Position numbers and translations under genes: made by a program
NCBI RefSeq assembly: GCF_029937755.1
Contig: NZ_JAPYPG010000002.1
Span: 349,648-413,647, forward strand
DNA: 64,000 nucleotides
Origin: Henriciella sp.
GTDB taxonomy: Bacteria > Pseudomonadota > Alphaproteobacteria > Caulobacterales > Hyphomonadaceae
Direction of reading: 5' to 3'
Shown here: piece after piece, positions 8,787-28,956 of the stretch
Layout: each line of letters begins with the position of its first letter
Position numbering within the stretch: position 1 is the stretch's first letter
Notes under the pieces: generated by a model
Seen by the model: the letters and a program-made list of their open reading frames with translations, nothing else
Databases searched by the model: none
Told to the model about the DNA's origin: nothing

Positions 8787-8828
8787 GCGAGCTGCCTTAG
8801 CGCGCCACCTTCGCAATCTCAAGAAACC

Positions 8829-9254: not shown

Positions 9255-9258
9255 ACCG

Positions 9259-9840: not shown

Positions 9841-9989
9841 GATTTGCCCTCCCAAGCTGTCCGCAGCATGTCGCGGAAAGGGTTCATCGGCAAGGTGCTA
9901 TCCTTGGACTTCGCGACAATCCGTCTACGCCCTGTTAGGGGCTTTGCCTGCAATAAGAGGGGTATGGAAACGCAAACAAGACGCCGGTG

Positions 9990-12165: not shown

Positions 12166-12262
12166 TATGGTCTCCTGCTACTCCCGTCACCTTGGTTCCC
12201 GGTCTAGGGGAGAGCTGGCGAGACTGTCCATGCTGACATAGGGTCAGGCAGGGGCAGTCAGG

Positions 12263-12793: not shown

Positions 12794-12806
12794 TCTGTCT
12801 GCTTTC

Positions 12807-13331
12807 CTAGTAACCACCGGACTGCGTGACCTTGATGGTGGAATTCCCATACTGTGTCACGGCAAAACCGAGATTGTCGCCGTTCTGTACGTGCTCGAAG
12901 CGGTTATTGTCACCAAACTGGGCGGCCGCCGAAACATTGTGGTTACCGGTCTGGAGCAACTCATACTCATTGTCGCTGCCATACTGGGCGAGGACCGACG
13001 CGTTGGACTCACCCGACTGGACGATTTCAGCACGGTTGTCCGTGTGAAGCGATGTCTGGGCAGCAATGACGAGATTGCCGGCACCCGACTGATCGATCTC
13101 GATGCGGTTGCCCGTTGTACCTTTCTGGACGACGACAACATTGTTGCCGGATCCCAGCTCGATTTCGCTAGCATCGACATCGCTGTTGCCGCCAAACATG
13201 GCCTCCAGTGGGTCACTGTTGAGTGACTCATATTCGGACGAGCCGTCTGCGAGAGCGACAGCCCCCGAGACAGCCCAGGCCGAAATGGCAACCGCAGCGA
13301 AGCGGATAACACCCTGGATCGCTGCGGTCAT
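12807..13331 (-). CDS. Curlin-repeat protein, short (CsgB/CsgA-like)
   Basis: A secreted amyloid-type subunit of 174 aa. After a signal peptide (about residues 1-28, ending AVALA) comes an acidic spacer and then roughly six curlin repeats of the form Q-x-G-x2-N (for example VQKGTTGNRIEIDQSGAGN and AQYGSDNEYELLQTGNHN). It ends TQYGNSTIKVTQSGGY. The start is the ATG at 13331, with AAGGGG 6 bases upstream; the open frame runs much further upstream but is not coding there. As the shortest of the three curlins here it is the best candidate for a nucleator, which is inference. Confidence 0.85.
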   Translation of the reverse strand: MTAAIQGVIRFAAVAISAWAVSGAVALADGSSEYESLNSDPLEAMFGGNSDVDASEIELGSGNNVVVVQKGTTGNRIEIDQSGAGNLVIAAQTSLHTDNRAEIVQSGESNASVLAQYGSDNEYELLQTGNHNVSAAAQFGDNNRFEHVQNGDNLGFAVTQYGNSTIKVTQSGGY

Positions 13332-13341
13332 AGGCATCCCC

Positions 13342-14457
13342 TTACTGAGCGACGTTGGCGGTGAGGCCAGCGCCAGCCTGAGCCAAGGTGGACGTCGCAC
13401 CGGCACTTGCCTGATGGACATAGGCGACATGGCTGGCACCATCCTGCACGATGCTGGAGGTCGCCATGTTCGAGTCGACTGTCTGGATGTTCGTGGCCAG
13501 ATTGTCGCCGCCAGCGCCAAGATCATCCTTCTGGGTGATTTCGGAGTAGCCCCCAAAACCTTCCTGCTGGATAAGGACCTCGCTGGAGAAGTCGCTGGCT
13601 TCCTGTGTGACCATCGCCATATTGTCACCACCGAACAGGTTTGACAGGTTCTGCTCGATGTTGACGTCACCGGCGGTGCCGTACTGATACACGTCAGCGG
13701 TATTGAAGAAGCCGTCCGTATCGATCTTCACCCGGCCATCAATCCCGTTTTCCGTGACATAGGCAGCGTTGAAGCCGCCGAACTGGTCGATGCGAATCCA
13801 CGGATTGGTACCGTCGGATTTGACATCGGCAATGTTGCCAATGGACGGGAAAGCCGCCGGCGAGTTGATCGGAACGAACTCGCCCTGAAAGATGCGGACT
13901 GCGCCATAATCGGCACGCTGGTCGACAGCCGCCCAGTGATCATCGCCGCCCTGGTCGATCTTGACAAACGCCTCTGTCGAGTTGCGGCGCTGGAGGGCGC
14001 GGGCGAAGTTGCCCGTGCCACGTTGACGAACGCGCGCATCTGCCAAGTCCGTGAATTGACGGATCGTAACGCGGTTACGGTTACCAGAAGCGGCCCCTTC
14101 AAAGGCCTGACGGACAACGGCATTGTTGCCATCGCCACCATTGCTACCGGCGTTGCCACCCTGGGTAAGCTTCAGGGTATTGCCATAACCGTTGTTCGCA
14201 ATCGTCAGACTGGTCTGCTTTACATCAGCGATGTTGGCAACGCCATTCTGGGTGACCTCTGCCAGCGCCTGTCCATTCAGCAGGTTGCCCCAGGTCTGAT
14301 CGACAATCGCGCTGTTGGCGGTGCCGATCTGTTCGATCATTGCGGTATTCTCGTAAGCTGCCGAAGGTTCATAGTCCGGCAGGGGTTCCGAGCCTTGTGC
14401 CATGGCGGGCGCTGCAAGCGCAGCTACAGACACGGCTGAGACAAGGAGTGCTCTCAT
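13342..14457 (-). CDS. Curlin-repeat protein, divergent (371 aa)
   Basis: A secreted curlin-like protein. It has a signal peptide of about 20 residues (ending APAMAQ), then Q-x-G-x2-N/A repeats that are clear at both ends (IEQIGTANSAIVDQTWGN, VTQNGVANIADVKQ, QDGASHVAYVHQ). The middle is degenerate, with Arg, Trp and Phe residues unusual for curlins (TNPWIRIDQFGGFNAAYV). The start has AAAGGA 9 bases upstream. It lies between the 510-aa and 174-aa curlin genes in the same operon. The mixed repeats suggest a specialised fibre subunit rather than a second copy of the major one. Confidence 0.83.
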   Translation of the reverse strand: MRALLVSAVSVAALAAPAMAQGSEPLPDYEPSAAYENTAMIEQIGTANSAIVDQTWGNLLNGQALAEVTQNGVANIADVKQTSLTIANNGYGNTLKLTQGGNAGSNGGDGNNAVVRQAFEGAASGNRNRVTIRQFTDLADARVRQRGTGNFARALQRRNSTEAFVKIDQGGDDHWAAVDQRADYGAVRIFQGEFVPINSPAAFPSIGNIADVKSDGTNPWIRIDQFGGFNAAYVTENGIDGRVKIDTDGFFNTADVYQYGTAGDVNIEQNLSNLFGGDNMAMVTQEASDFSSEVLIQQEGFGGYSEITQKDDLGAGGDNLATNIQTVDSNMATSSIVQDGASHVAYVHQASAGATSTLAQAGAGLTANVAQ

Positions 14458-14480
14458 AATTCAGATCCTTTCGAGGTTAC

Positions 14481-14507
14481 CCGGTTCCCGCCTCAGGCAG
14501 GAACCGG
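14481..14507 (-). promoter_or_regulatory. Intra-operon hairpin between two curlin genes
   Basis: An inverted repeat of 12 bases (CCGGTTCCCGCC and GGCAGGAACCGG on the plus strand) with a 3-base loop and one G-U pair in the RNA. It fills most of the gap between the 510-aa and 371-aa curlin genes. No T-run follows in the direction of transcription, so it is more likely an mRNA processing or stabilising element than a full terminator. Confidence 0.6.
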
Positions 14508-14520
14508 TTGTCTCCTTGCT

Positions 14521-16053
14521 TTACTGGGTGACCGTGGCGGTGTTGCTGGAGCCGTCCTGCGTGACGTAGGACACGGCGCCAAGCGACCCCTGAACGATGC
14601 TGACGGTGTTATAAGACCCACCCCCCTGATGAACGGTTGCCTTGGCGTCACCGCTCACTTGCAGGATGGATATCTCGTTCTCCCAGCCGGACTGATCGAC
14701 CCAGGCATCGTTTTCGGTGCCGAGCTGATCGATATCGGTGGAATTGAGCTCACCGTCCTGATCGGCATAGGCCTTGTTGCCTGTGCCGGACTGATCAAGC
14801 AGCAGTTCGTTGAGATTGCCATACTGCAGAAGCGTAGCGTTGTTCAGGTTGCCGGTGTTCTGCTTCAGGTCCATCACGTTATCCGCACCGTACTGGCGCA
14901 GATACGCTTCATTCATATCACTCGTTTGCGAGACCAGCATGGTTTGCGCATCCCCTTCCTGAACAATGTTCATGAAGTTCGTGTCGCCATCCTGGTTCAG
15001 GTCGACCAGACTGCCATCATACGCGGTCTGGTAAGCCCAGATCGTGTTGTGAGCACCAGTCTGGTTGGACACAAAGTCCGATTCCGCACCATCTTGGTGA
15101 ACGTCCAGCTTGTTATGGAAACCATCCTGAAGGGCCGCCAGTGTGACGTCCGTGCCGTCCTGGTCGCCCGTCATCCGGTTATCGTCGCCATACTGCTCAA
15201 GCGTGACCGACCAGCGGCTCGCTTCCTGCAGGAACGCTTCCGACTCGGTGCCGACTTCGTTGCCGGAGCCGACCTGGATGACGTTCAGCGTGGATGCCGT
15301 GGCACCGGTCTGCTCCAGGTTCGCGAAGTTGCCTTCAGTGCCGGCCACCTGCGTGACCAGGATCAGGCTGCCCGTGGAATCCTGGAGGATCGTGGCAACG
15401 TTCGAGTCACCCGACTGATCAGCAAGTATCGAGTCGTTGGCACCATACTGCTGGATGGTCATCGAGTTCGACGAGTCGTCCTGGTAGACGGTCGCCGACG
15501 TGCCGTCGCCCTGTTGCGTGATGTAGGTTTCGTTGCCGGCTTCCGTGCCAGAGCCGTTGCCCTGAAAGACCTTGGCCGTACCGTCATAGCCATCTTGCTC
15601 GATGTCGGCGACGTTATCCATGCCCTTCTGGTCGACAACGGCCAGAGCCCAGCCAGTGTCATTCTGAACAACGTCGGATGAGTTGCCCGTGCCAAGCTGC
15701 GTGACATTGGCGGTATCGTCTGAGTTGGTCTGTTCGATCGACGACACGTTGGCGTCGTCGCTCGCTGTACCGAGGCTCATCTGGTTCACGACAGCATTGT
15801 TGTAAGTGCCGCCCTGAGTGATGAAGCTGTCATTGAGCGTTGCGCCCACGGCAGCCAGAGCATCGCTCTGCGTGACTTCGGCATAATTGTCCGAGCCCGT
15901 CTGATCGATATCGGATTCGCCACCCAGACCACCGGTCTGGTCGACGTCCGCAATGTGGCCAGTACCAGTTTGGTCAATATCTGACTCACTGGCGAATGCT
16001 GGCGCACTCAATACCAGGGCAAGAGATGCCCCGATGAGAAGGTGTTTGCGCAT
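14521..16053 (-). CDS. Major curlin-repeat protein (CsgA-like, 510 aa)
   Basis: Probable main subunit of a curli-type amyloid fibre. It has a signal peptide (MRKHLLIGASLALVLSAPAFA) and about twenty tandem repeats of the strand-loop-strand type with Q-x-G-x2-N and N-x-A-x-V-x-Q cores (DQTGSDNYAEVTQ, TQLGTGNSSDVVQ, DQSGTGNKAYADQ). It is acidic, rich in Asp, Gln, Thr and Asn, and lacks cysteine. Enterobacterial CsgA has five repeats, so this subunit is several times longer. The start has AAAGGAG 6 bases upstream. It follows csgG directly. Confidence 0.88.
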   Translation of the reverse strand: MRKHLLIGASLALVLSAPAFASESDIDQTGTGHIADVDQTGGLGGESDIDQTGSDNYAEVTQSDALAAVGATLNDSFITQGGTYNNAVVNQMSLGTASDDANVSSIEQTNSDDTANVTQLGTGNSSDVVQNDTGWALAVVDQKGMDNVADIEQDGYDGTAKVFQGNGSGTEAGNETYITQQGDGTSATVYQDDSSNSMTIQQYGANDSILADQSGDSNVATILQDSTGSLILVTQVAGTEGNFANLEQTGATASTLNVIQVGSGNEVGTESEAFLQEASRWSVTLEQYGDDNRMTGDQDGTDVTLAALQDGFHNKLDVHQDGAESDFVSNQTGAHNTIWAYQTAYDGSLVDLNQDGDTNFMNIVQEGDAQTMLVSQTSDMNEAYLRQYGADNVMDLKQNTGNLNNATLLQYGNLNELLLDQSGTGNKAYADQDGELNSTDIDQLGTENDAWVDQSGWENEISILQVSGDAKATVHQGGGSYNTVSIVQGSLGAVSYVTQDGSSNTATVTQ

Positions 16054-16106
16054 AGTTTACTCCTTTGACTTCGCTCAGCCCGTCGTTGACGAGCCCCCTT
16101 CACCAA

Positions 16107-16141
16107 CCGCCCAATCGATATGTTCGATGTCCCCTGGGCGG
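16107..16141 (-). promoter_or_regulatory. Bulged hairpin in the csgG-curlin gap carrying GGGGAC
   Basis: On the transcribed strand CCGCCCA and ATCGA pair with TCGAT and TGGGCGG, closing a 5-base loop. A one-sided bulge of 6 bases reads GGGGAC. The bulge is part of an AGGGGACA element (16128-16135) that recurs in other leaders of this region. The hairpin lies about 55-90 bases before the start of the major curlin gene. Confidence 0.5.
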
Positions 16142-16155
16142 GCCTGAACGACGCA

Positions 16156-17487
16156 TTATGCGCCCTCCAAATTCGACTCCGTTTCAGCTTTGCGCATCGC
16201 GGCATCCGCCACGCGGCGCATTTCCAAAGCGGTTATCGAAAATTCGTCGCCATGCAGCGCCGGGAGGCTGCCAATCGCGGCGTTGTAATTATAAAAATCA
16301 GCGGCCGTCTGCCTGGTCCCGCCGTCCCCTTGCGCGACAGGCTGGACGGCCGCTGGTACCGCGGAGATGGTCTGCGCGGTGTTCCGGGCCGGCACACGAT
16401 GGGGGTCCATCGCAGGCCGGTTTGAGTGTTCTTCTGGCGAGTATGAAGCCACTGCCAGAGGCTCGGACTTCGTCGAAGCCGGAGAGACCTGCATCGAGAT
16501 CTTCTCCTTCGCGACCGGCTGTTTCTGACGCTGCTCGGGAGCCTGCTCAGATGCAGGCGCACTGAGAGCAGCCTCCTGGACGGGCTTTTCCTTCACCGCA
16601 TAGGCCGACTCCATCGTGTCGAAGACGCCATCACGCTCGGCGCGGTAGCGCTCGATGATCTCGGCGCCAGCGACCTGGTCGTGGAAGCCCCAGATGCCGA
16701 GGTCGGCCCCTTCGAGGATCAGCAGCTCAACCGCCTTCTCCGTTGCCTGGCGCAGGGCCAGCAGGTCGGGTTCATTGGTCGTGATGCCGGTGTCGACTTC
16801 CAGAAGTTCCTTGAAGCTCACGAAGCGGAAGACATTCGAGGCAACGCCGATCGAGGCAATCTTCTTGGATGCGACAACCGTGGTGATCACTTCACCGGTC
16901 TTCACGCTGACGGCGCGAAGATAGACGGTGACCTTGTCTTCCCGATAATCGGTCTTCGCGCCGATACCCAGGAAGCGCGCCCCTGCACCACCGGTGATCG
17001 TGTTGGAATCATAGCCGATGATGCCGCCTTCGAGGATGATACCTGCAAACAGAAGCGGCGGAAGCGCGGCCTCGTTGACGTCTTCCTCGCCAAGATACTG
17101 ACGGCGCATCTCACGGATAATCTGGCGTTCCTTCAGGAGGTTGTCGAGATTTTCGCGTTCGATGACAGTGAACCAGGAGCGGTTACCGGCATCCTGAAGC
17201 GCTTTCAGCAGGACCGAGGTCGACCCTTGCGTCACGGCCTTCGACAGGGTCTGGACCCCGGAGGACGGTTTGAACTGACCGGTCTGGTCTTCGAAATTGT
17301 AGACAGCGACGGCAGCCCGTTCGCGTGGCGGCGGAAGCGCCCGCAGCGAGGACTGGGTGTCGGTGACCGTCTCGGAGACGGCTGGTTCGGTTGCGAAATT
17401 CTGCATCGTGCCTGCGGTTGTGGAACAACCGGCGAGCATCATGACGGCAGCCGCAACGGCGGAGCCAAGTTTGAAAACGGGTGCCAT
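16156..17487 (-). CDS. csgG: Curli secretion channel lipoprotein CsgG (CsgG/HfaB family)
   Basis: CsgG forms the outer-membrane pore through which curli subunits leave the cell. The 443-aa product has a lipoprotein signal with lipobox LAGC near residue 21. Its core has family motifs VAVYNFEDQTGQFKP, WFTVIERENLDNLLKERQ and VFRFVSFKELLEVD. E. coli CsgG is about 277 aa; here an extra C-terminal region of roughly 150 residues, rich in Pro, Ala and Gln, is added. The ATG at 17487 lies one base after the csgF stop. Together with csgF it identifies a true curli locus rather than only a holdfast (Hfa) locus. Confidence 0.92.
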   Translation of the reverse strand: MAPVFKLGSAVAAAVMMLAGCSTTAGTMQNFATEPAVSETVTDTQSSLRALPPPRERAAVAVYNFEDQTGQFKPSSGVQTLSKAVTQGSTSVLLKALQDAGNRSWFTVIERENLDNLLKERQIIREMRRQYLGEEDVNEAALPPLLFAGIILEGGIIGYDSNTITGGAGARFLGIGAKTDYREDKVTVYLRAVSVKTGEVITTVVASKKIASIGVASNVFRFVSFKELLEVDTGITTNEPDLLALRQATEKAVELLILEGADLGIWGFHDQVAGAEIIERYRAERDGVFDTMESAYAVKEKPVQEAALSAPASEQAPEQRQKQPVAKEKISMQVSPASTKSEPLAVASYSPEEHSNRPAMDPHRVPARNTAQTISAVPAAVQPVAQGDGGTRQTAADFYNYNAAIGSLPALHGDEFSITALEMRRVADAAMRKAETESNLEGA

Positions 17488-17488
17488 C

Positions 17489-18079
17489 TTAGTAAATCCC
17501 CCCGCTTGGCGTGAGGCTTCCTTCACCCATGCCCTCATAAAGGGACGACCCTGTCAGGTCGCCGGACGTATTCGGCACGACAGGCATGGAGCCCTGTTCC
17601 GAATTACCAGTGAGGGTCGGAGCAAGAATGGAACCGGCCGGATCGCTTCCGTCGGTAACATTCAGAAGCGGGATTTCGATTTCCGTGACCGTACCCGTCG
17701 ACAGGTCGGTGATGGTGAGGTGAACAGATCCGACCCCGCGAACGAACTCGATGATCTGGTCACCGAAGGTGATGGTGCCTTCGTCCTGCGGGTTCTCCCC
17801 GAAAATGGCTTCGTTCACCTCGCCGGCGAGCGACGAAAGCAGACGGCTTTGCAGCTGGCGGATGAACTGATCGGCCTGACTGTCCCGGGAACTCCTCCCA
17901 TCCGGATCGTCATAATCGTTCTGCGCATTCGCGATGCCAATAAGATGAGATGAATTGAAACTGTCACCGCCGAAAGATGGATTAACCGGCGTGTACACCA
18001 ACTCCTGGGCGAATGCTTGTGCGCCGGCCGCAAGACCAGCGGCAGCAAACAGCGCAAAGGCTGCGGAGCGTCCCCTCAT
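17489..18079 (-). CDS. csgF: Curli assembly factor CsgF
   Basis: CsgF is a periplasmic/surface factor that binds CsgG and helps nucleate fibres at the cell surface. The product of about 196 aa has a signal peptide ending AQAFA. It is followed by the CsgF hallmark ELVYTPVNPSFGGDSFN and a segment with QADQFIRQLQSRLLSSL. The C-terminus is extended compared with E. coli CsgF (138 aa). The ATG at 18079 is preceded by TGGGGACA and three bases; an ATG four codons upstream (18091) is less likely. It is the first gene of the leftward curli operon. Confidence 0.9.
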   Translation of the reverse strand: MRGRSAAFALFAAAGLAAGAQAFAQELVYTPVNPSFGGDSFNSSHLIGIANAQNDYDDPDGRSSRDSQADQFIRQLQSRLLSSLAGEVNEAIFGENPQDEGTITFGDQIIEFVRGVGSVHLTITDLSTGTVTEIEIPLLNVTDGSDPAGSILAPTLTGNSEQGSMPVVPNTSGDLTGSSLYEGMGEGSLTPSGGIY

Positions 18080-18082
18080 ATG

Positions 18083-18188
18083 TGTCCCCATTACAAGTAA
18101 CATGCTTGCCCGGACCATCCAGGCGTGCCGTGTCCCCACACCGCTGCATGTTTGATGCCAAGATTACAGGCAATTAAGAATTCGTCAA
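18083..18188 (-). promoter_or_regulatory. csgF leader: candidate promoter and two TGGGGACA copies
   Basis: This AT-rich region feeds the curli operon. A possible sigma-70 promoter reads TTGACG (18188-18183), 16 bases, then TAATCT (18166-18161). Downstream are two copies of TGGGGACA, at 18138-18131 and 18090-18083. The upstream copy sits in GTGTGGGGACAC, where GTGT and ACAC can pair around a GGGG loop. The downstream copy lies three bases before the csgF ATG and probably acts as its ribosome binding site. The promoter call is weak. Confidence 0.4.
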
Positions 18189-18293: not shown

Positions 18294-19655
18294 TCAGTGC
18301 GCCTCGCCTGTTGGATCTATCCAGACCCCTGCCGAAGACAGCTGCCCGGCCTCTGGATCATAGGAAACAATGAATGCACCATTGGAGCCAACATGATCAT
18401 TCGCCGAGTAGTTGAGAGGCGGCGTCATGGCGCCAACAAAACCCTGGATTGATTCAAGCCGTTCCGTAAAACGTTTGCGCGTGACCCCGCGTCCGGCCCG
18501 CATCAGGGCCTCGATGGCCACCACCGCAGATGAATAGATATTGGCTTCGGCGATCGGTGCCATGCCAGGCACCCGCGATCTTGAGCGCACGCGCGCGAAG
18601 CCTCGCTGGGCACCCTCGGAAATCCGATCGACAGCGATCGGCAAGGCAACCGACACGGAGGCCGGCCACTCCTTACGAACCTCCGGCGATATCTGGCTGA
18701 ACACCCGGAATGGCACAAGCAGCCTGGCCGCCGTGCCACCCGCTTCGGCGCAGCTCGCATCCCGCAGAAGGGTAACGCCCTCCGCCGGCGTTGACGATTC
18801 ATTGCACGCCTCAAGCTCGGCAATGCTGGTCGCGCCGAACTGCGTCACGGCGAAGGCCCGCAAGGCGGCAATCTGCTCGGTATCGCCTGCCGTCAGCATG
18901 AATCCCAGTGCCCCTGGCGCCGCGACGAACGAATCCGAAATGGTCGGTACGTCCGGCACCGGCCTCTGCGCTCCGAGCACGGCGAAAACCTCATCCGGGA
19001 CCGGCTCTCCGCCAGCCTCGTCATACGGAATGAAGACGAGTGAACGCCCATGGATGCCACCCGCCGCATTCAGGTCGGCCCTCAGCGCATCGAGTACGCC
19101 CCGCATTGACTGGCCGGTCCGCCAGGCCGGCCCCGACAGGGGCAAGGCAACGCCGATGCGAACCTCGCCTTCATTCAAGCCGGGTTCCGCTTCGTCCTTC
19201 AGCTTGTCGAGAAACGCCCAGAGATCTGACACGTCGGCGGGAGACAGGTTGAAGCGCGGCATCGCATCGGCGAGTGCAGTCCCGCCGGAATCCACCCCCC
19301 GAGTGATCGCGCGCTCGAACAGGGCGCGGTCATAAGGCGGACGAACACGTCCGGCCGCGGCACTCACGGTGTAGGGCCGGGTCAGCGCGTCCCGGGAAAG
19401 ATCACTCGGCGCGACACCGCGTTCAGCCTGTCCCTGCCCGCGTTCGCCATGGCAGCTTGAACAGGGAAAAGACGACGCGGGAAGTTCGGTGTCCATGCCT
19501 CCGATCATTGCGGTTGCCGCCTGCAGTGCAGCCCCATCTTCACCGAAGTAGATTGCCCGCCCCCGCTCTTCAGCCGGACTGAGTTGCGCCCCCGCACTGG
19601 CGCATATGCCGAAACCAGCGAGAAAAAGAGCCGGAAGCCTAGCCGATATTGTCAT
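18294..19655 (-). CDS. Cytochrome c fused to a periplasmic ligand-binding (type 1 PBP-like) domain
   Basis: An exported protein of about 453 aa with two parts. After the signal peptide (ending ASAGAQ) is a class I cytochrome c domain with heme motif CSSCH near residue 65 and a likely axial Met in AMPRF. From about residue 145 it continues as a branched-chain amino-acid-type periplasmic binding domain: VRIGVALPLSGPAWRTGQSMRGV, then ALRADLNAAGGIHGRSLVFIPYDEAGG. The ATG at 19655 overlaps the upstream Sco gene by 17 bases; an ATG at 19688 is possible. It is the last gene of the oxidase operon. No permease or ATPase partner is nearby, so it probably senses or carries rather than imports. Confidence 0.82.
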   Translation of the reverse strand: MTISARLPALFLAGFGICASAGAQLSPAEERGRAIYFGEDGAALQAATAMIGGMDTELPASSFPCSSCHGERGQGQAERGVAPSDLSRDALTRPYTVSAAAGRVRPPYDRALFERAITRGVDSGGTALADAMPRFNLSPADVSDLWAFLDKLKDEAEPGLNEGEVRIGVALPLSGPAWRTGQSMRGVLDALRADLNAAGGIHGRSLVFIPYDEAGGEPVPDEVFAVLGAQRPVPDVPTISDSFVAAPGALGFMLTAGDTEQIAALRAFAVTQFGATSIAELEACNESSTPAEGVTLLRDASCAEAGGTAARLLVPFRVFSQISPEVRKEWPASVSVALPIAVDRISEGAQRGFARVRSRSRVPGMAPIAEANIYSSAVVAIEALMRAGRGVTRKRFTERLESIQGFVGAMTPPLNYSANDHVGSNGAFIVSYDPEAGQLSSAGVWIDPTGEAH

Positions 19656-20274
19656 CGGCGATATCAATAATCTGGCCCGCAATGACATTATCCGGAAGAT
19701 AGGCTGGCAGTTTGCGCCAGCGCGCCGTACCGGTGTTACCGATCAGCAGTGCGGTCAGGTGGGCTTCCTTCTCGAAAACCTGGCCAAGCTTGCTGCTGAC
19801 CGTCTCGACAGCAGCCGTATCGCCGGTCAGGAAGAGCCAGCCCTCGCCCGCATCGAAATCCTGACGGTACACGTTCAGCTTTTCAGGCGTGTCGGTTTCC
19901 GGATCGACCGAAATCGACACAAAGGCGATGTCCTCGCCCATACGCTCGCCAAGCCGGGCCTGAACCTTCTGGAGGTTCTGGTTGATCAACGGGCAGGCAT
20001 CGGTGCAGCTCGTGAAAATGAAGCTGACGACCACCGTCTTGCCTTGCAGCACATCCGAATAGAAGCGCACATCCTTGCCATTGTGATCTTTCAGAACCGT
20101 GTCGGTGAAATAGGCACGGGCCTTTTCATGGTCGCCCACCTCGCCAACATGCTTCGTCTCAGACGTTTCTATCTTCGCGGCGTGACCGGAATGATCCTCA
20201 TCGGAATGCGCGGAGGCGGCGAGCGGGCTCAGGGCGAGACCGGCGGCGGAAATCAGGAGTGCCAAGTGTTTCAT
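19639..20274 (-). CDS. Sco1/SenC-type copper chaperone, copy 2
   Basis: A thioredoxin-fold Sco protein of 211 aa. It has a signal peptide (ending PLAASA), a His/Asp-rich segment (HSDEDHSGHAAK), the copper-binding CxxxC motif in FTSCTDACP, and the Sco motif VSISVDPETDTPEKL. The usual conserved distal His is not obvious: the expected region reads KEAHLTALLIGNTG. Sco proteins deliver copper to cytochrome oxidase CuA sites and can serve other copper enzymes. Here the neighbours are a multicopper oxidase, not a cytochrome oxidase, so loading of that oxidase is the likely role. Confidence 0.9.
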   Translation of the reverse strand: MKHLALLISAAGLALSPLAASAHSDEDHSGHAAKIETSETKHVGEVGDHEKARAYFTDTVLKDHNGKDVRFYSDVLQGKTVVVSFIFTSCTDACPLINQNLQKVQARLGERMGEDIAFVSISVDPETDTPEKLNVYRQDFDAGEGWLFLTGDTAAVETVSSKLGQVFEKEAHLTALLIGNTGTARWRKLPAYLPDNVIAGQIIDIADDNIG

Positions 20275-20291: not shown

Positions 20292-20963
20292 CTAGTGATG
20301 ATGAGAGTGGCCGCCATCGGCCTTGCTGCGCATCTCGAGAAGATGGCGCACACGCGTTTCGATCATCGCCGGGTCCGGCAGGCCGAAGACGCGGACATAA
20401 TTGCCGGTGGACGCATCGCCGATGATGATCATCGGGGCATGGTCTTCCGGATTGGTCGAATAGGCGTCCATAGCGACCAGCGCGTCGTCCATGATGCGCT
20501 TCTGGCCGGTCAAAAAGGTCCAGTCCGCCTTGGCTCTTGCAGCGAATTCCGTGAGACGGGCCGGTGTATCGGTATTCGGATCGATGCTCACCGAAACCAG
20601 CGCCAGGTCATCCGCGCTGACATCGGACAGACGCTTGTCGGCTTGCGCCATCAGCGCCGTCGTGACCGGGCAGATGGTCGTGCAGCTTGTGAAAATGAAG
20701 TCGATCACTACGATCCGGTCACCGACAATCTCGCTTGCCATGCGGCGTTCGGCGCCGGTCTGGTCGAACATCGCCGTGTCGGGAAGCGTCACGTCAGCAG
20801 AGGTGACTTCCTTGCCGCCATCATCCTGCATGGCCGCATTATGGGCGGCATGCGGATCATGATCTTCATGCATCCCGTCACCATTCGGACCGGCTATCGC
20901 CACTCCCGCCATGGCACCGGCTGCAAGCAGCACCGCACCCAGTTTCGAAAGATATGCCGGCAT
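20292..20963 (-). CDS. Sco1/SenC-type copper chaperone, copy 1
   Basis: A 223-aa exported Sco-family protein. It has a signal peptide (ending GVAIA), a His-rich N-terminus (MHEDHDPHAAHNAA), CxxxC in FTSCTTICP, VSISIDPNTDTPARL, and EDHAPMIIIGD with the candidate third ligand His. The C-terminus ends in HSHHH, a further probable metal-binding tail. The start has AGGAGGGG closely upstream. It lies between the beta-propeller gene and the second Sco gene. Two different Sco proteins in one operon suggests separate steps, for example reduction and copper transfer. Confidence 0.91.
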   Translation of the reverse strand: MPAYLSKLGAVLLAAGAMAGVAIAGPNGDGMHEDHDPHAAHNAAMQDDGGKEVTSADVTLPDTAMFDQTGAERRMASEIVGDRIVVIDFIFTSCTTICPVTTALMAQADKRLSDVSADDLALVSVSIDPNTDTPARLTEFAARAKADWTFLTGQKRIMDDALVAMDAYSTNPEDHAPMIIIGDASTGNYVRVFGLPDPAMIETRVRHLLEMRSKADGGHSHHH

Positions 20964-20990: not shown

Positions 20991-22952
20991 TTACCGGGCT
21001 CCCCCGGCGGCCGGACCGGCGCCGTCGCGCGCGATCACGGTAATGAATGGAAGCTTCGAGAAGCCGAGGCCCTTCGAGCGGACGGCCGGATAGACATAGT
21101 AGACCCCTGCCTTGCCCGGCGTGAGCCTGACCTGATAGCGCCCATTGCCGAGATGCTCGGCCGCCTGTGTGAGCCGCGCATCGCCCGGCGCCCGATAGGT
21201 TACTGCAGTCACATCATCACCCGTATACGGCGCGCCTTCCTTGGCCGTGTCACTCAGCGTGAACTGGACGCTGACATCCTGGCCGGTCTCCACAAGCTTG
21301 CCGCTGCGGGTATCATAGGCGATCCGGAGCGGCAGCTCATCGGCAACAAGCTGCGGGTTCTGTTCGGAGGTAAAGCCGAAGCATTCGATGATCTGCGGGG
21401 AATCCATGGTCATGATGACCCCGAATTCACCCGGAGCCGGCATCTTCACCAGCGAGACATATTCGCCAGGCGCGACCTCCTTGATGGTCCGGTCGGCCAC
21501 AAGCGCAGCCAGCGGCCGGTGGCCATAATTCCGGAAGTTGCCCATCGGGGCGTTCATGCCTTCCATATAGTAGTAGACCGTTGCGTCGCCGGGGCTGACC
21601 GTCAGGGTCGCCGCCTCGGTCACAGCCGGGGCAAACATGTCGGCGGGCAGCAGGCTCGGCGACTCTGCCGGGGCGCGTTCACCCGCCGCGTAACCGAGAA
21701 CCGCCGGTGCTTCCGGTCCGCCAATCTGGGTGAGCTTGATCATTGAGACACGCGGCGTATCGAGCGCCCGGATGAAAGCGAAGTTGCGCGAGAAGACGAC
21801 CTGGAAGGGTTTGCCCTCGATCGCCACGCGGTGGACCAGCCCGTTGGTGGCCGTGTCGAAAATGAAGACCGCATCCTTGGCGGCATTGGTAACGAAGCCA
21901 TAGCGTCCGTCAGGCGTGATCTTCATCGGGCCCAGACCGGCTTCAAGCGTGATCGTCCCGCGGGGCTGGCGTGTTTCCGGATCGATGGCGGTTACGGTCC
22001 CGTTCACGCCATCGGCGACATAGACCGCCTCTGCCAGCGGTGAGTAGGCAACCGCGATCGGTGCGCCATCAAGCGAGATATCCTCGATCTTCTTGAGCTC
22101 GCGCACATCGATCACACTGACCGTGCGGCTCTTGCGGTTGGTGACATAGGCAAACCGATTGTCCGCCGTCACGGTGATCTCATGATGGCCATCCCCTGTC
22201 TCGATATCGGCCACGCGCTTCAGCGTGGTCGTATCAATGACAGAAACACCCGGCTTGTCGCCCGTGCGGCCGACCCAGACATAGCGTCCGTCCGGCTGCG
22301 TAGTGATCCGGTCAGGGTGGTCACCGACCTTGATGGTGGTTTCGAGGCGGAAGGTATCGAGATCGACAACGGCCACGGAGTTGGTGTCCGGCATGGCCAC
22401 GAAGACGCGCTTCTGATCTGCCGATGGTGTCCAGTCAGCGCCGCGTGCCGGCAGGATGATCTGAGTCAGCAGCTTGGTGATGCCCTTCACACCGATGATC
22501 GGGTCGATCACCGCAATCGTCGGGTCATCGTTCAGAACGACGACGTAATAGCTGTTCAGATCTACCATGGGGCGCACGCCGATATAGCCGCTGAGGTAGA
22601 GCCCGGCCTTCTGGCGGCACTGGGCTGCGGTCAATTCATCCCGGCCATTGATTGGATCAACCCATGCGGCCGGGTATAGCCCCGACACAGGTTCACCCGT
22701 CTCCGCGTCAGTAATGGTGAAAGAGACACGAGCCATCTCGCCCTCGATCACGCGGCCTTCGTCATTTGCGACTGAAGCAATCGCGAAATCGACCTTCAGG
22801 CCTTCTCGCTCGAAGCTGCCGGTGTTGACCGGCGCGGCTGCCGCTCTTGCTGACTTGCCGTTGCCCGAAAAGACAATGCTGACAAGGCCGAGAGCAATTG
22901 CGCCAAGACAGGCAGCGCCGATGACGATGGATGGACGGCTGAGACGGATCAT
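20991..22952 (-). CDS. Periplasmic YVTN-type beta-propeller protein with flanking Ig-like domains
   Basis: The product of about 653 aa has an N-terminal signal or anchor helix (IVIGAACLGAIALGLVSIVF). An immunoglobulin-like domain follows at about residues 40-100 (VIEGEMARVSFTITDAETGE). Then come seven or so YVTN-type propeller blades (VFVAMPDTNSVAVVDLDTF, RFAYVTNRKSRTVSVIDV, GYGFVTN-like repeats). A C-terminal Ig-like domain (TGQDVSVQFTLSD, NGRYQVRLTPGKAGVYYVYP) ends it. ATG 22952 has AGGGG 6 bases upstream. It directly follows the giant oxidase gene and is probably its partner, as a scaffold or electron-transfer platform. No heme or copper motif is evident. Confidence 0.8.
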   Translation of the reverse strand: MIRLSRPSIVIGAACLGAIALGLVSIVFSGNGKSARAAAAPVNTGSFEREGLKVDFAIASVANDEGRVIEGEMARVSFTITDAETGEPVSGLYPAAWVDPINGRDELTAAQCRQKAGLYLSGYIGVRPMVDLNSYYVVVLNDDPTIAVIDPIIGVKGITKLLTQIILPARGADWTPSADQKRVFVAMPDTNSVAVVDLDTFRLETTIKVGDHPDRITTQPDGRYVWVGRTGDKPGVSVIDTTTLKRVADIETGDGHHEITVTADNRFAYVTNRKSRTVSVIDVRELKKIEDISLDGAPIAVAYSPLAEAVYVADGVNGTVTAIDPETRQPRGTITLEAGLGPMKITPDGRYGFVTNAAKDAVFIFDTATNGLVHRVAIEGKPFQVVFSRNFAFIRALDTPRVSMIKLTQIGGPEAPAVLGYAAGERAPAESPSLLPADMFAPAVTEAATLTVSPGDATVYYYMEGMNAPMGNFRNYGHRPLAALVADRTIKEVAPGEYVSLVKMPAPGEFGVIMTMDSPQIIECFGFTSEQNPQLVADELPLRIAYDTRSGKLVETGQDVSVQFTLSDTAKEGAPYTGDDVTAVTYRAPGDARLTQAAEHLGNGRYQVRLTPGKAGVYYVYPAVRSKGLGFSKLPFITVIARDGAGPAAGGAR

Positions 22953-22975
22953 TCTGTTCCCCTGCAAAATGATGG

Positions 22976-23005
22976 TCCGGCACGAAGAGCAAGCTTCGTG
23001 CCGGA
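22976..23005 (-). promoter_or_regulatory. Perfect 12-bp hairpin between the oxidase and propeller genes
   Basis: TCCGGCACGAAG and CTTCGTGCCGGA form a perfect 12-base stem with a 6-base loop. It lies 15 bases after the oxidase stop and 24 bases before the propeller start. A TTTT follows several bases later in the direction of transcription. It could be a partial terminator setting lower expression of the downstream genes, or a 3'-end stabiliser for the long oxidase message. Confidence 0.65.
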
Positions 23006-23019
23006 TATTGGTTGGCGAC

Positions 23020-26000
23020 CTATTGTTCAGGCACCGCATCCTCCTCGACCCGAACCAGGCCCCAGAGGCCGTTCTGGTTGCCGAACGAGGCAAGGTCGCG
23101 GAAGAGGTAATCGCCCGGTACCGAGAACGGACCACCTGCCTGGGTCATGATGTTCCACGCCGCAGGCGGAAGGATCATGTCCTGAGAGGTCTTGAACCGG
23201 TGATACGGTGTTTCTTCCATCCGGGCTGCCGGTACGCCGAGATCCCAATCCGAAAGGAACGGCTCTTCTCTCCAGTTATGGCCGAAGATACCGAGCGTGG
23301 TGTTGCGGGCATAGCCAGCCGGCATGGTCACGCGGAAGCGCATCTGCTGGCCGGCTTCTGCACGGTACACCGGCGTCTCCGGATCACGATCGTTGATGAG
23401 CGAGTTCGAATAGGCCTCGTACATGTTCCGGATGCTGGCAAGACCAGGGCCGACCGGAAGGCCAGTCACATCGTCAACGCCGCCACCCAGCCCCCAGTCT
23501 GCGCCCGCAGCCATGCGGAAGCGGAACCAGAGCGGCTCGGTGCGGTAGTTGATGCCCGCGCCGCCAGCATCATGAGCGTCCTCAGGAATGCCGAAGCCTT
23601 CACCCGCAATGTTCTCGACCGGTGAGCTGTCACCGTAGCGCAGGTTGACAGCCTTGTGGAAGATCATCGCAAAGTCGCGGAAAGTGTTACCATCCTCCAG
23701 CGTCACCGTTGCCTGGCTGCTGGTGTCAGGATCTTCTTCCCATGTCGCCCCTTTCGGCAGGACATGGATGGCCCCGAACAGACCCTTCTGGCCCTGCTTT
23801 ATGAAGTCCGCCGGCTGGACCGGCACACCACCGAGCTCGACCGGGCGGGCCTCGAGATTGAAGGAGTCACCGTACAGACCGCCATAATTGCCCGACCCAT
23901 GATTGTGGCCGTAGCCGGAGCGGGCCCGCTGATCGAGCTCCAGGTCGCCGGCATAAAAGCGATAGGTGCGCGATCCACCGGGAGCGACCGTCTGCACAGG
24001 GTTCACGCCCACATTCACACCATCGTCGCGCGAAATATCGTATTCGAGCTTCTGGGTGTGGAACCCGACATGGCTGGATGCCCGGATCAGGTTGTTATTG
24101 AAGGTCGTGTAGCCCTGCGGGTCGTTGCGGTCCCGGATCACGGTATAGTGCTGCATCACGAAGGATGTCAGGTCCGGGGTCACCTCCGGCAGGCGGTTGC
24201 GCACCGTCACCTCGAGACAGTCACCGGCGTTTACACGCATGATCATCGGCTCGAAGTTGTGGTTGTTACGCACCTTTACCGGACACAGCGGATTAGCCGT
24301 GCCGCCGTAACGGTTCCGGCAGAGCATGTCCTCGATCGGTGTCTGGGCGTCCTTGCGGAGGTCATCCGTCGAGACGTAGACGAGAGCCGTCGGGTCATGG
24401 AGCGGACCACGCTCGCCATTCGAAAGGCGGGTGCGGCGCTTGTTATAGACCAGGGTGCCCTTGTTCGGATCCGGCTGGGCGCCGACGTGCATGGTGCGCG
24501 TCTCGTCATCCGGCAGGATGGTGACACCATTCTGGATCCTCTGCAGGACATCGTTCACAGCGACAGCCGTGATGTCGAACGCCTTGACCGGCGCATCGAC
24601 CGGGCAGACCCCGTTATACTCTTCCTTGTTTGTGATCGTGATCGGAAGGTCACGCGGGTTGTTCGGCAGCTGCGCCAGATCGGCCTGGGCGTTGTTGTAG
24701 GTGCGGATAACGCCCCACGTCCCCGTCCAGAGACCTTCCTGCGAGCCATCCCAGAGATAGAGATAGTCGGACACATTGGCGGCTTCGCCGATATCCCCGA
24801 TAATGCTCATTGCGAAGGATGCCTTCTCGGCGAGGCCGAGCTGGAACACGCTGCGCCAGCTTGAGAACCGGCTTTCGCCCCAGCCCCCGCCACCTTCGAG
24901 CCACTTCACACCATGGATCACGGTGTTGTGCTCATGCTCGTGGGCACCGGCCTGAACCTTCACGCGGATAACGTCACCGGCATTCGCACGGATGATCGGC
25001 GTGAACGGGTCACCACGGCGCACGTCGCCCGTCAGCAGCGGATAAGGCGTGTCACCCTTCCTCGTGTTGAACTGTGGTATCGCCCGGTCGGTACGGGTCT
25101 GCAGGGCATAGGCAAGGTCGCCACCCAGCCCGTCGGCCTGCATGCCCGGCTTGCCATCCGGCCCGATCTTGTTCGGATCATAGACGCGGTAGCCGACCGG
25201 CTCATTACGATAGTTGATGACGAACGTCCCGACATCGGCAGCGGACACCGCTTCCGGACATGGCCGCGGCAAGCCGCCGGGGCATGTCGAGTGAATGCGG
25301 GCACCATCCGGCCAGGCATGAGCCTGACGATGAGACGGATTCAGCGCGTAGCGGAAGGTATCCGGCGTTGCAGGTGCAATCTCGCCGTCCTCGGTCCGGC
25401 CGACATAGACGCCTTTGTTGTAGGCGTGGGCAAAGTCCTGCGCCTCCATGTAGAACTCCCGATAGGAGTCGTCTGACCCGTCATTGTCGATGTCGCCGGC
25501 AAGCACGATGGCCTGCCACGAGGTCGGACCGCCGTCATGGCGCGTATAGAGCGGGACACCCGTCTCATTGTGCAGCCATTCGGAGTCAGCCGGGTTGATC
25601 AGCAGCGTCGCGTAGAGACCGATCTGCTGGTGGGTCGACGGACCGAAGTGGTCGTGCGTGAAAGTCACGCCAAGCCCCCGGTCAAAGCCATTGGTATTAT
25701 GAAGCGGATCAACGAACCAGCGCTGGATGTTAGTGCGAGCCCCCATCCACTCGCCGCCATCGCCAGCGCCGAAATACGGGTGCGGCTGCGGCTCGAGAAG
25801 CTGGTCACCGGTGCCCTCATCCAGCACATAGGCGTTGATCGCCTCGATGCGCTCCTGAACGGTTTCAGCACCAAGCACACCGTCTTCATAGTTCCAGCCA
25901 TTGGCCGCACCGTCAGCAGACACGAGGTCCCACTTCGGAAGGTGGATGTGCTGGCCGATGACATCGGTCGGCGTGGTCACCTGATAGTCATCGAGCATGT

Positions 26001-28668
26001 AGAACTCGGGGACCAGATTGGTCTGGTAGTAGTTCGCACAGTCAAACGAGTTCAAGCGCATGATGAACGGCTCAGGCGGACGGGTCTTGTTGAGGGTCGT
26101 CTCCACATCATCCCACAGCGCAATGATGCGCTGCTGCGGATAGTGATCGCCGGCCTTGTTGAAGACCACGTCGAGCTGGATGTTCGCCGCCTTGTAAACA
26201 CGCGGATTATCGGCGCCATAGGTCGGAGAATGCTCGTTGGCGAGGCCGCCAGCGGTTCCGGAAAAAAACTGCCCCGGCTGGCCGGTGACGAAGAGGTCGC
26301 CCTCATCGTCGATACACGGCTCGAAGAAGGGCGCACCCGGAACCGGCAGCTGACCATTGGTCCGGAAGGTTGCGCTTTCGAACGTGCCGCCCCGAAGCAG
26401 GCGGGTCGTGTCATGATAGCGAGTGGCATGGAACGCCATGGCCGCGCGCTCAACATCATTGCCGGTTTCCGGCATGTAGTGTGCCTTGGCCTTATCGATA
26501 TGTTTCTCGAAACTCAGGCGCGACTGCACTGAATGGGTCACACCGCCGACAGCATAGCCGTCGAGATAGTGACGCGGCAGGCCACCATCCCAGCCACCGG
26601 CTGTCAGGTCGCCCGGATTTTCCATCATGTCGAGCGGCGGCGTCGGAGCCCGCTGGCCGACAGCGCCCTCGATCCCGCCGATCCAGAATGGATAGCCGGG
26701 GTTCTTCAGGCCGGTCGGGTTGAGCGGCTCGTTGTGGCCATAGCTGGCCAGCAGCGGACGCATATCGACGAACGCCGGATCGGTATCGGTTCGGTCGATG
26801 ACGGCCTGGCTGGATTCAGGCGTACCGTCATTGTCCTTGTCGACGCTTGCGACATGAACGCGGCCGGGCATCGGCGGAAGGGCCTTGCCAGGCAGCGGCA
26901 CGATTGCCGGGATCGGCGTACCTGCAATGATCTCGCCATCGGGAAGCGCGCGCGATCCAGAAGCCGGGCGGCCTTCCTCAAGCGCGTAGGCATTCTGGTG
27001 GTAGCCATTGTCACCGACCGAGACATCGAGAACCGTACCGGCTTCGAAGACATCGTGGTTGCGCCACAGCGCCCACATGCCTTGCGCGAAGTGCGGGTAG
27101 AAGTGGCAGTGATAGATCGCATCGCCGGCGGACTTGTTGCGGTTCCCCGAACCGCCAAAGGCGATCTCATAGGTATAGGCCGCACCCGGGCCGATGCCCT
27201 GCACGTCCAGATAGTTGGAGTTGTCGTCGTCCGCGTTGGACAGCCACTGGTGGTTGTGAAGGTGGAAGACGTGTAGCTCTTTCGGCCCGGCATGAAGGTT
27301 CCGGAACTTTACGAAGTCACCCACATAGGAGTGGTGAACGTTGGACGGATCGTCGGGATACTTGGCGTAGCTCGCCCGGATGGACGGGTCACGTTCGCAG
27401 AACGGATCGCCCGGATGCGGTGAGCAGAATTCCAGGCCCGCATTGGCCGGCACATCGACCAGCATCGCCGGGTCGCCGACAGCAAAGGCGCTCAGGAAGA
27501 ATTCCTCATAGGCGCAGCTCAGGCAGTCATGCATCGGACCAACACCGAGGCGGTTCGCGATAACTTCAGAGCCAATGCCGCCGGATGCGGAGTTGATCAT
27601 GAAATTGTCGCCCACACCGTGCAGTGTGTGCTCGAAAACCGGATCCTCGAACCAGCCCGGGAAGGCCTGCTTGGAGACCATCTCGTCAGAGAAGATCGAA
27701 ACGTATTCGCGATAGGCTTCGATACGGTTCGGCACCGCCGGGTTGCGTTGGCCGTTTGCTTCCAGCGGATAGACCTCCGGATCGAAAGTGCCGTCCGCAT
27801 TCGGGCCAGAGATAATGGCGTTGATGTCGCTGTGAACGATCTTGTTTTCGTCCTCATCGATCATGTTGAGGATCGGCATGCCGGCCTTGCCCTCTTCGAG
27901 CCATGGGCTCTCATTCGGGTAGCGGGCTTCATAGTCGATGATCGGGTGACCAGAGGTCGTCGTACCTGTTGTGACAAGACGCATATCTTCTTCCGTCACC
28001 TGGCTGCGGTAGAAATCCGCGCCGTGCGGCTGGACCGTGATCGCGCCGAACAGACCGTTACCGATATTGCCGCCTGCACCTTCGCCACCGAAGGTCGCCG
28101 CGTTGGAAACGATGAGGTGGGACCCCTCAGCCGCCGCAAAGAGCGTATAGGTTTCAGATTCGCCGGGCATCAAAAGGGCGTTGTCGTTGCGCCCGGCATT
28201 GGTCGAGATGTCGTCGATATCGTTGACAGCGTTCATGCCGACCGGCGAAAACCCGACGGAGCGGTCCATGACCTGATCATTGATGGTCATGATGTCGTTA
28301 TCGGCATTGTTCGGATTATCGTTGAAGCTCAGCAGGTTCTCAAAATTGACTTCTAGACAGTCGCCAATACGGGCGCGCAGGATCAGCGGACGAGGCCGTT
28401 TGTCCTTACGCAACTCCACAAAACCCGGAATGAGCGTGCCGCCAGCAGCTTCCGATTTTCCGTCGAATTTGCTGACAACATCAGAGCGCAAGGCATACAA
28501 CATGCCGTTGACGTTCTGTGCCCCCATCCGGTTGAACATGAGCGGCTGGTCGATGGCGACGACGTCGGCCTCGATCGTGCGCTCACATGTGGCTTGACCA
28601 CTTGCGGTTGAAACTGTGGCGATAACGGCAACCGCGCTTGCGGCCGCCAGCTTGAAGAAGCGGTCCAT
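23020..28668 (-). CDS. Giant multicopper oxidase-like protein, candidate MnxG-type Mn(II) oxidase
   Basis: A secreted protein of about 1882 aa with a signal peptide (MDRFFKLAAASAVAVIA, cleavage near ASGQA). It is built from many cupredoxin-like domains. Copper-site motifs include FHLHNHQW (His469, 471, 473), and HCHFYPHFAQGM (Cys521, His526, Met531), which fits a type 1 centre with C-x4-H-x4-M. Others are QHIHLP (907, 909), FTHDHFGPSTHQ (1005, 1007, 1013) and AHEHEHNTVIHG (1243-1252). Two Asp/Asn-rich loops, DKDNDGTPE (about 610) and DIDNDGSDD (about 1060), look calcium-binding. Laccases have about 500 residues; the size and motif spread resemble bacterial MnxG-class Mn(II) oxidases, but that assignment is from memory. 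The ATG at 28668 has GGGGGGAC just upstream. Confidence 0.8.
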   Translation of the reverse strand: MDRFFKLAAASAVAVIATVSTASGQATCERTIEADVVAIDQPLMFNRMGAQNVNGMLYALRSDVVSKFDGKSEAAGGTLIPGFVELRKDKRPRPLILRARIGDCLEVNFENLLSFNDNPNNADNDIMTINDQVMDRSVGFSPVGMNAVNDIDDISTNAGRNDNALLMPGESETYTLFAAAEGSHLIVSNAATFGGEGAGGNIGNGLFGAITVQPHGADFYRSQVTEEDMRLVTTGTTTSGHPIIDYEARYPNESPWLEEGKAGMPILNMIDEDENKIVHSDINAIISGPNADGTFDPEVYPLEANGQRNPAVPNRIEAYREYVSIFSDEMVSKQAFPGWFEDPVFEHTLHGVGDNFMINSASGGIGSEVIANRLGVGPMHDCLSCAYEEFFLSAFAVGDPAMLVDVPANAGLEFCSPHPGDPFCERDPSIRASYAKYPDDPSNVHHSYVGDFVKFRNLHAGPKELHVFHLHNHQWLSNADDDNSNYLDVQGIGPGAAYTYEIAFGGSGNRNKSAGDAIYHCHFYPHFAQGMWALWRNHDVFEAGTVLDVSVGDNGYHQNAYALEEGRPASGSRALPDGEIIAGTPIPAIVPLPGKALPPMPGRVHVASVDKDNDGTPESSQAVIDRTDTDPAFVDMRPLLASYGHNEPLNPTGLKNPGYPFWIGGIEGAVGQRAPTPPLDMMENPGDLTAGGWDGGLPRHYLDGYAVGGVTHSVQSRLSFEKHIDKAKAHYMPETGNDVERAAMAFHATRYHDTTRLLRGGTFESATFRTNGQLPVPGAPFFEPCIDDEGDLFVTGQPGQFFSGTAGGLANEHSPTYGADNPRVYKAANIQLDVVFNKAGDHYPQQRIIALWDDVETTLNKTRPPEPFIMRLNSFDCANYYQTNLVPEFYMLDDYQVTTPTDVIGQHIHLPKWDLVSADGAANGWNYEDGVLGAETVQERIEAINAYVLDEGTGDQLLEPQPHPYFGAGDGGEWMGARTNIQRWFVDPLHNTNGFDRGLGVTFTHDHFGPSTHQQIGLYATLLINPADSEWLHNETGVPLYTRHDGGPTSWQAIVLAGDIDNDGSDDSYREFYMEAQDFAHAYNKGVYVGRTEDGEIAPATPDTFRYALNPSHRQAHAWPDGARIHSTCPGGLPRPCPEAVSAADVGTFVINYRNEPVGYRVYDPNKIGPDGKPGMQADGLGGDLAYALQTRTDRAIPQFNTRKGDTPYPLLTGDVRRGDPFTPIIRANAGDVIRVKVQAGAHEHEHNTVIHGVKWLEGGGGWGESRFSSWRSVFQLGLAEKASFAMSIIGDIGEAANVSDYLYLWDGSQEGLWTGTWGVIRTYNNAQADLAQLPNNPRDLPITITNKEEYNGVCPVDAPVKAFDITAVAVNDVLQRIQNGVTILPDDETRTMHVGAQPDPNKGTLVYNKRRTRLSNGERGPLHDPTALVYVSTDDLRKDAQTPIEDMLCRNRYGGTANPLCPVKVRNNHNFEPMIMRVNAGDCLEVTVRNRLPEVTPDLTSFVMQHYTVIRDRNDPQGYTTFNNNLIRASSHVGFHTQKLEYDISRDDGVNVGVNPVQTVAPGGSRTYRFYAGDLELDQRARSGYGHNHGSGNYGGLYGDSFNLEARPVELGGVPVQPADFIKQGQKGLFGAIHVLPKGATWEEDPDTSSQATVTLEDGNTFRDFAMIFHKAVNLRYGDSSPVENIAGEGFGIPEDAHDAGGAGINYRTEPLWFRFRMAAGADWGLGGGVDDVTGLPVGPGLASIRNMYEAYSNSLINDRDPETPVYRAEAGQQMRFRVTMPAGYARNTTLGIFGHNWREEPFLSDWDLGVPAARMEETPYHRFKTSQDMILPPAAWNIMTQAGGPFSVPGDYLFRDLASFGNQNGLWGLVRVEEDAVPEQ

Positions 28669-28956
28669 ACGTCCCCCCATGGAATGACGCTCTATGATTG
28701 TCCCCACGCGAATGTCCCAGACTCGCGTTCATTAACATTATGTCATGGCTTTCTGCACGTCCAGTCGAAAAATCGCGAATTCTCAAAAAATTTCCGGCTT
28801 TCGAAAAAATACTTGGGTATTCTTGCGATGCGCAGCATTTATTGCGATTTTCGTCTCTTTTACCCAGTACATCTCAATCACATGCACACGAGCAGGCTGA
28901 CGAAGATTCGCGTGAGAGGTGAAAACGCTTTTCTGGCCACAACCGAAAGGGGCGGG
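28669..28956 (-). promoter_or_regulatory. Upstream region and structured leader of the giant oxidase gene
   Basis: A 288-base gap, AT-rich between about 28760 and 28880, that must hold the oxidase promoter; I could not pick a convincing -35/-10 pair. Near the gene, on the transcribed strand, ACGCGA (28728-28723) and TCGCGT (28711-28706) form a 6-base stem around an 11-base loop containing TGGGACA. The 3' arm runs directly into TGGGGACA (28706-28699). A further GGGGGGAC lies just before the ATG. The first part of the gap after the gspJ stop shows no gene. Confidence 0.45.

Follow-up and report, generated by a model that had tools for sequence, protein, structure and literature searches.

The locus analysed here raises the question of what a c-type cytochrome joined in one polypeptide to a periplasmic ligand-binding (PBP) domain contributes to an operon for a giant oxidase. 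It lies within a stretch of 64,000 nucleotides from Henriciella sp. (hereafter the window). A sequence-only reading had proposed that a CSSCH heme domain and a branched-chain-type binding domain are fused at the end of the oxidase operon, with no ATPase nearby, and that the fusion might couple ligand sensing to electron transfer. The operon, read 5' to 3' on the minus strand, encodes a giant multicopper oxidase, a beta-propeller protein, SCO A, SCO B and the cytochrome c-PBP protein. These five co-directional genes are tightly packed with short junctions, and the fusion gene is indeed the fifth and last of them. The features concerned are:

23020..28707, minus strand: giant MnxG-family multicopper oxidase, 1895 aa (NF041487)
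20991..23135, minus strand: YVTN/YncE-type beta-propeller protein (true start probably near 22950, by eye)
20292..20963, minus strand: SCO1/SenC protein A (Pfam 8.3e-19; CxxxC in the sequence)
19639..20274, minus strand: SCO1/SenC protein B (Pfam 5.9e-22; CxxxC in the sequence)
18294..19655, minus strand: cytochrome c-PBP fusion protein (open reading frame, Pfam and structure model; start at M12)
19449..19463, minus strand: CSSCH heme-binding motif (residues 76-80; Cys, Cys and His invariant in 71 of 71 members)
19251..19265, minus strand: AMPRF with the likely axial Met143 (Met in 71 of 71 members)
18297..19166, minus strand: type-1 PBP-fold domain (Peripla_BP_6; fold matches with Z of about 18-20)
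18741..18809, minus strand: stretch with the two extra cysteines C295 and C313 of the shortened PBP half

The longest open reading frame of the fusion gene spans 18294-19688 on the minus strand (464 codons). Its second ATG (M12, at 19655), which the end of the SCO B gene overlaps by 17 bp, is the likely start and gives the better signal peptide by eye; the predicted product, with this plausible signal peptide, is probably exported. Both halves of the domain pair are recovered in this single frame, Cytochrom_C with an E-value of 6.7e-5 (24.6 bits, cut-off 21.3) and Peripla_BP_6 with 4.3e-16 (60 bits, cut-off 31.7), and because these matches exceed the Pfam cut-offs the two domain calls are more than chance. 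The heme ligand set of two cysteines, a histidine and a methionine is identical in all 71 aligned family members, every one of which has the CxxCH motif and distal methionine of class I c-type cytochromes. From its sequence the protein appears to be a monoheme cytochrome c, with predicted heme attachment, joined to a type-1 PBP domain. A chance CxxCH in the protein and a pseudogene state of the gene were considered and rejected, as was the identity of the product as an ABC transporter receptor.

The oxidase aligns with NF041487, the NCBIfam model of MnxG, over its full length (residues 41-1888) at 2296 bits, which does not reach the equivalog cut-off of 3100 bits. By this match it is a member of the MnxG family, not a proven equivalog, and it is probably a manganese-oxidizing copper enzyme. 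Its best segment is 48-51% identical to Pseudomonas MnxG, and four apparent copper motifs (residues 479-484, 533-544, 920-922 and 1018-1020) keep their His, Cys and Met residues unchanged across five aligned MnxG-like proteins. The beta-propeller protein has a C-terminal YtkA-like match below the cut-off. Scans for promoter-like and terminator-like signals remained near the shuffled level (7 against 5.0 and 13 against 11.9, respectively). Between mnxG and the propeller gene there is a 12-bp perfect hairpin (22976-23005), and strong hairpins of differing sequence occur at the same junction in 9 of the 10 other loci that were picked and folded, the exception being L109; these could possibly be mRNA processing or attenuation signals.

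The operon is of the mnxG type already described in Pseudomonas (PMC11409713, PMC8218464), which the sequence-only reading had not recognised. Table 4 of PMC11409713 gives the mnxG operon of P. putida GB-1 as mnxG and the gene of a YVTN propeller, followed by two SCO1/SenC genes, gene 641547574 and, last, a SurA-domain gene. Gene 641547574, annotated 'Amino acid/amide ABC transporter substrate-binding protein, cytochrome c domain', is the cytochrome c-PBP gene. The same source tells of the operon's conservation in two further strains, and a similar operon is reported from Pseudomonas sp. OF001 (PMC8218464, also in the legend of its Fig. 2). Because these accounts describe the mnxG operon, both the fusion and its place in the operon were already known. 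No functional study of the fusion was found in the open-licence literature, and the available portions of PMC11930936 and PMC10734462 hold nothing on it. The operon in the window shares its gene order with the GB-1 operon, a likeness of order and description rather than of sequence, but differs in being followed by the curli genes csgF and csgG instead of a sixth, SurA-domain gene, in adjoining type II secretion genes, and in a PBP half that is about 60 residues shorter than in Pseudomonas and has two extra cysteines. The operon is thus of a known kind, met here in a different lineage and set apart by its trimmed PBP half. A further likeness, by description only, is offered by the mof operon of Leptothrix discophora and Rubrivivax sp. 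A210, which according to the legend of Fig. 3 in PMC8218464 combines a multicopper Mn-oxidase with the cytochrome c-domain protein MofC, and to which A210 adds a putative copper metallochaperone; there, however, MofB is a Mip-like protein and the portions of that source available tell of no PBP domain.

The operon sits between type II secretion genes, at 28957-33401 on its own strand and 33563-39058 on the opposite one, and a curli region (12263-18139) downstream on the same strand, in which CsgF and CsgG are identified by Pfam and curlin-like repeats by eye. Prepilin-like frames of the type II secretion kind lie upstream of mnxG in all seven loci L065-L071 (frame starts, by eye), and csgF-csgG follow the cytochrome gene in L065, L067, L070 and L071; in L043 (genome G027) the two genes are about 7 kb off on the other strand. 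As far as gene neighborhood is a guide, the giant oxidase may be exported by the adjoining type II secretion system, and a layout of secretion, oxidase and matrix would fit the deposition of Mn oxide at the cell surface. None of the paper titles listed joins curli, manganese and Hyphomonas; the terms for curli and manganese both occur in PMC3056050. The contigs of L067 and L071, which are filed under Acidobacteria MAGs, have a Hyphomonas-like secretion, mnx and curli locus very like that of L070 and are probably misbinned.

The association of the fusion with MnxG was followed across genome contigs. A scan with a single protein found no relative; a scan with the MnxG alignment did find relatives, giving 555 confirmed loci of which the best 80 were kept, so that the counts lean to close relatives, mostly Pseudomonas. 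A locus was taken as assessable with at least 5.3 kb downstream of mnxG or with the gene seen, and eight of the 80 were dropped for a downstream part that is too short (L066, L076, L091, L116, L118, L121, L129 and L136). Within these best 80 of 555, the fusion lies downstream of mnxG in 70 of 72 assessable loci, a count with a slight lean toward presence from L119, which has 5.0 kb downstream and was scored present under this rule. The full order of propeller, SCO, SCO and fusion is seen in 69 of the 70 fusion-bearing loci, L115 having one SCO. The two loci of the 72 without the fusion are L135, in which mnxG and the propeller gene are present and SCO and fusion matches are absent, and L106, whose flank is filled by three tandem mnxG-like frames, so that absence there is not truly assessable. 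Of the tandem frames in L106 (9899-25759, Pseudomonas schmalbachii), the third is cut by the end of the locus. The loci are not independent, as L068 is the G006 contig, L069 is the G027 contig, and L067, L070 and L071 are near relatives. In a genus survey with profiles at E 1e-20, MnxG and the fusion occur together in the same 4 of 29 genomes and neither occurs in the other 25. The MnxG profile matched in 4 of 385 genomes of the class, full-length only in the window's own genome, and tblastn against plasmids returned 8 records, none with at least 80% query coverage. Averaged over the 71 members, distances are lowest for MnxG (0.26), higher for the heme half (0.41) and highest for the PBP half (0.48); the distances of both halves correlate with those of MnxG at 0.95, a value expected from shared descent alone.

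Further fusion loci came from a second survey with the family profile (E 1e-20) of 369 sampled genomes of the class of G661, which gave 32 rows in 20 genomes. Seven rows without a heme motif were left out, four genomes having only such rows; 21 of the 25 heme-bearing rows were examined with their flanks and 4 were not, and the addition of G763 makes 22 loci. In 19 of these a SCO gene lies within 300 bp of the fusion, and in the three SCO-less loci the distance to a multicopper oxidase is at most 850 bp. Such an oxidase, scored by a motif match or by 60 bits or more against one of four queries, is present in 16 of the 22 stretches, 13 times within about 5 kb and three times at 9-11 kb (L189, L198 and L199). 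None was seen in the remaining 6, where weak matches in L195 and L196 were counted as no. Three of the queries derive from L046, L047 and L049, so that L046 and L047 match themselves, though both are confirmed by Pfam; as to the extent of the stretches, L186 starts partway through the propeller gene, and L188 covers no more than 8 kb. Some of the oxidases beside the fusion are of ordinary size, such as the Pfam-confirmed one of 588 aa in L047. The question posed earlier, whether the domain pair always goes with the giant oxidase, therefore has a divided answer: the tie is supported in the MnxG loci and the genus, but it is not exclusive. The L047 stretch (6117-15559) has a PhoX-like gene, the cytochrome c-PBP gene, a SCO gene, a 599-codon frame without a Pfam match, a second SCO gene and the ordinary multicopper oxidase. 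Two uncounted loci are similar in part, L048 with an MnxG-like oxidase, a SCO and a CxxCH protein without a Pfam PBP match, and L054 with a SCO and a CxxCH protein. The 20-kb stretches around heme-less PBP matches (L051-L053) gave no SCO or MnxG match.

ABC transporter genes are not regular neighbors of the fusion. No open reading frame above 150 aa in the 64-kb window combines a Walker A pattern with an ABC signature, which upholds the earlier remark about a missing ATPase at that sensitivity. Among the best 80 of 555 MnxG loci, no ABC-ATPase-like frame lies within 5 kb in any of the 70 with the fusion, and six such frames occur elsewhere in the 80; in the second survey, 3 of the 22 loci have one somewhere in the stretch. 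A common pairing with ABC transporter genes, which would have spoken against the sequence-only reading, is therefore not what we find, and from these counts together with those of the 22 loci the fusion is usually accompanied by SCO and a multicopper oxidase rather than by a transporter.

SCO proteins and cytochrome c are known to act in the assembly of copper centres, and the operon in the window resembles such systems in having a SCO gene beside a cytochrome gene, although in this case a multicopper oxidase would be the target and a PBP fold is attached to the cytochrome. With confidence evenly divided between this and all other readings, we propose that the heme is a redox partner of the SCO protein(s) and the multicopper oxidase, with a PBP-derived docking module. 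The heme would exchange electrons with the SCO or copper centre during the loading of copper into MnxG or, in an alternative timing, within the working oxidase complex during turnover, and the PBP fold would dock the partners rather than serve as a receptor. In favor of this proposal are the near-constant presence of the fusion in the assessable mnxG loci among the best 80 of 555, its co-occurrence with MnxG in the same four congeneric genomes, the closeness of SCO and the frequency of oxidases in the 22 further loci, and the lack of SCO and MnxG matches around the heme-less PBP proteins. Physiological observations point the same way: ccm mutants of P. putida MnB1/GB-1 lose both cytochromes c and Mn oxidation (PMC9634551, citing Caspi 1998 and de Vrind 1998), and a role of ccm in Mn oxidation is also told in PMC11409713. 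Against it, the ccm phenotype may be pleiotropic, and other cytochromes, PetC and cytochrome c5, are raised with Mn at 18 C (PMC9634551). The available text of that source, which gives three hypotheses for the link between ccm and Mn oxidation, does not contain the term mnxG or mention the operon's own cytochrome. The genomic linkage, moreover, does not tell maturation from an electron conduit or a passenger, and the distance correlation with MnxG is no more than shared descent predicts. Six of the 22 loci lack a visible oxidase and three a SCO match, L135 keeps mnxG and the propeller gene without a SCO or fusion match, and in part of the 22 the PBP half is weak or split by profile, with no Pfam PBP match at all in L046.

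A different role for the same heme, to which we give a rather low probability, is that the cytochrome passes electrons from Mn(II) oxidation to the respiratory chain and so yields energy, with the oxidase or Mn(III)-ligand complexes bound by the PBP fold. Because a multicopper oxidase itself reduces O2, it needs no such outlet, and the fusion also adjoins other, smaller multicopper oxidases; on the other hand, its linkage to MnxG is constant, and c-type cytochromes have been proposed to channel electrons from Mn(II) to terminal oxidases (PMC9634551). Between the two, we slightly favor the maturation version of the redox-partner proposal, with SCO as the partner, over a working electron conduit.

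What the PBP half could still bind bears on the remaining readings. The model of the mature window protein, made with 71 sequences, has a mean pLDDT of 90.9 and a pTM of 0.83, and matches type-1 PBPs with Z-scores of 18-20 over about 270 residues (2liv 19.2, 1usg 18.5); Foldseek TM-scores by query length are 0.40-0.48 among the matches listed, for a query that includes the cytochrome domain. The fold is thus that of the LivJ-type PBPs (Peripla_BP_6; 2liv, 1usg, 4gnr), and Peripla_BP_6 is matched in 67 of the 71 members, but the fusion differs from these receptors in having no ABC ATPase nearby, an added heme domain, a replaced LivJ-type sequence and lost secondary-structure elements. When the LivJ protein 4gnr is aligned with the family profile, its PATSGATAA corresponds to PLAPALDSE of the profile and its SPSATQ to GPLSLL, at positions that hold the amino acid in LivJ. 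The PLAPALD-like stretch is kept by the majority of the 64 other members, with its two prolines in 59 and 60 of them, and is altered and partly deleted in the seven of the window type. The PBP half of these seven numbers 288-300 residues; in all but one of the 64 others it numbers 349-370, the exception being L119, which is cut by the end of its stretch. Relative to the model of the P. putida orthologue (pLDDT 89.1, full-length PBP domain), the window model has no counterpart of helices 185-196 and 216-223 (secondary-structure lists, by eye), and a short strand (255-258) stands where the orthologue has a strand-helix-strand unit (271-307).

It is improbable in our estimate that the protein is a ligand-gated sensor or binding protein, in which the PBP domain would bind an organic or metal-complex ligand and modulate the redox chemistry of the heme. 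The retained type-1 fold with its high model confidence and the full-length domain modelled for the P. putida orthologue would suit such a role, and the replaced binding sequence may be compatible with a different ligand, not of the LivJ type. The ligand sensing suggested earlier is nevertheless weakened by the replacement of the LivJ-type positions across the family, by their alteration and partial deletion in the window clade, by the absence from the window model of two helices and the greater part of a strand-helix-strand unit, and by the faster evolution of the PBP half than of either the heme half or MnxG. The sequence-only reading had also noted that the binding domain begins like a true family member; the start GVALPLSGP is present, and a similar one is found in the distant L045 protein, but it is absent from three aligned congeneric relatives.

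Least probable is that the fusion is a decaying solute receptor, an ex-transporter protein kept for its heme domain alone with the PBP half as a passive linker, since the shortening and the lower identity of that half relative to the heme half stand against a confident model, retention of the fusion in 70 of 72 loci among the best 80 of 555, and a shortened half with two cysteines, no more and no fewer, in every one of the seven clade members. These cysteines are 15-18 residues apart, whereas only 2 of the 64 other members have at least two in this half; the second falls in one alignment column in all seven, and in six the first lies within an alignment gap and is taken as equivalent on account of its spacing. 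Our guess is that C295 and C313 form a disulfide in the shortened domain, which looks like a trimmed but maintained domain and not a decaying one.

Returning to the redox-partner proposal, the replaced LivJ-type positions and the confirmed domain pair and fold are consistent with a PBP-derived docking module. More tentatively, and as something we consider less than even in likelihood, the fusion and SCO might constitute a general, as yet unnamed module for the maturation of, or electron transfer with, both giant and ordinary multicopper oxidases, in which the fold of a transporter receptor was taken over as a scaffold for docking and, in the Hyphomonadaceae, trimmed and perhaps braced by a disulfide; its cytochrome would then be the missing one behind the requirement of cytochrome maturation for bacterial Mn(II) oxidation. 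If such a module serves other multicopper oxidases, it would allow better annotation of operons in which this gene passes as part of an ABC transporter. For Mn oxidation itself, the link to be explained is that P. putida without c-type cytochrome maturation loses Mn(II) oxidation (PMC9634551), and the mnxG operon brings a cytochrome of its own, which is thus a candidate for the one seemingly needed in this process in bacteria.
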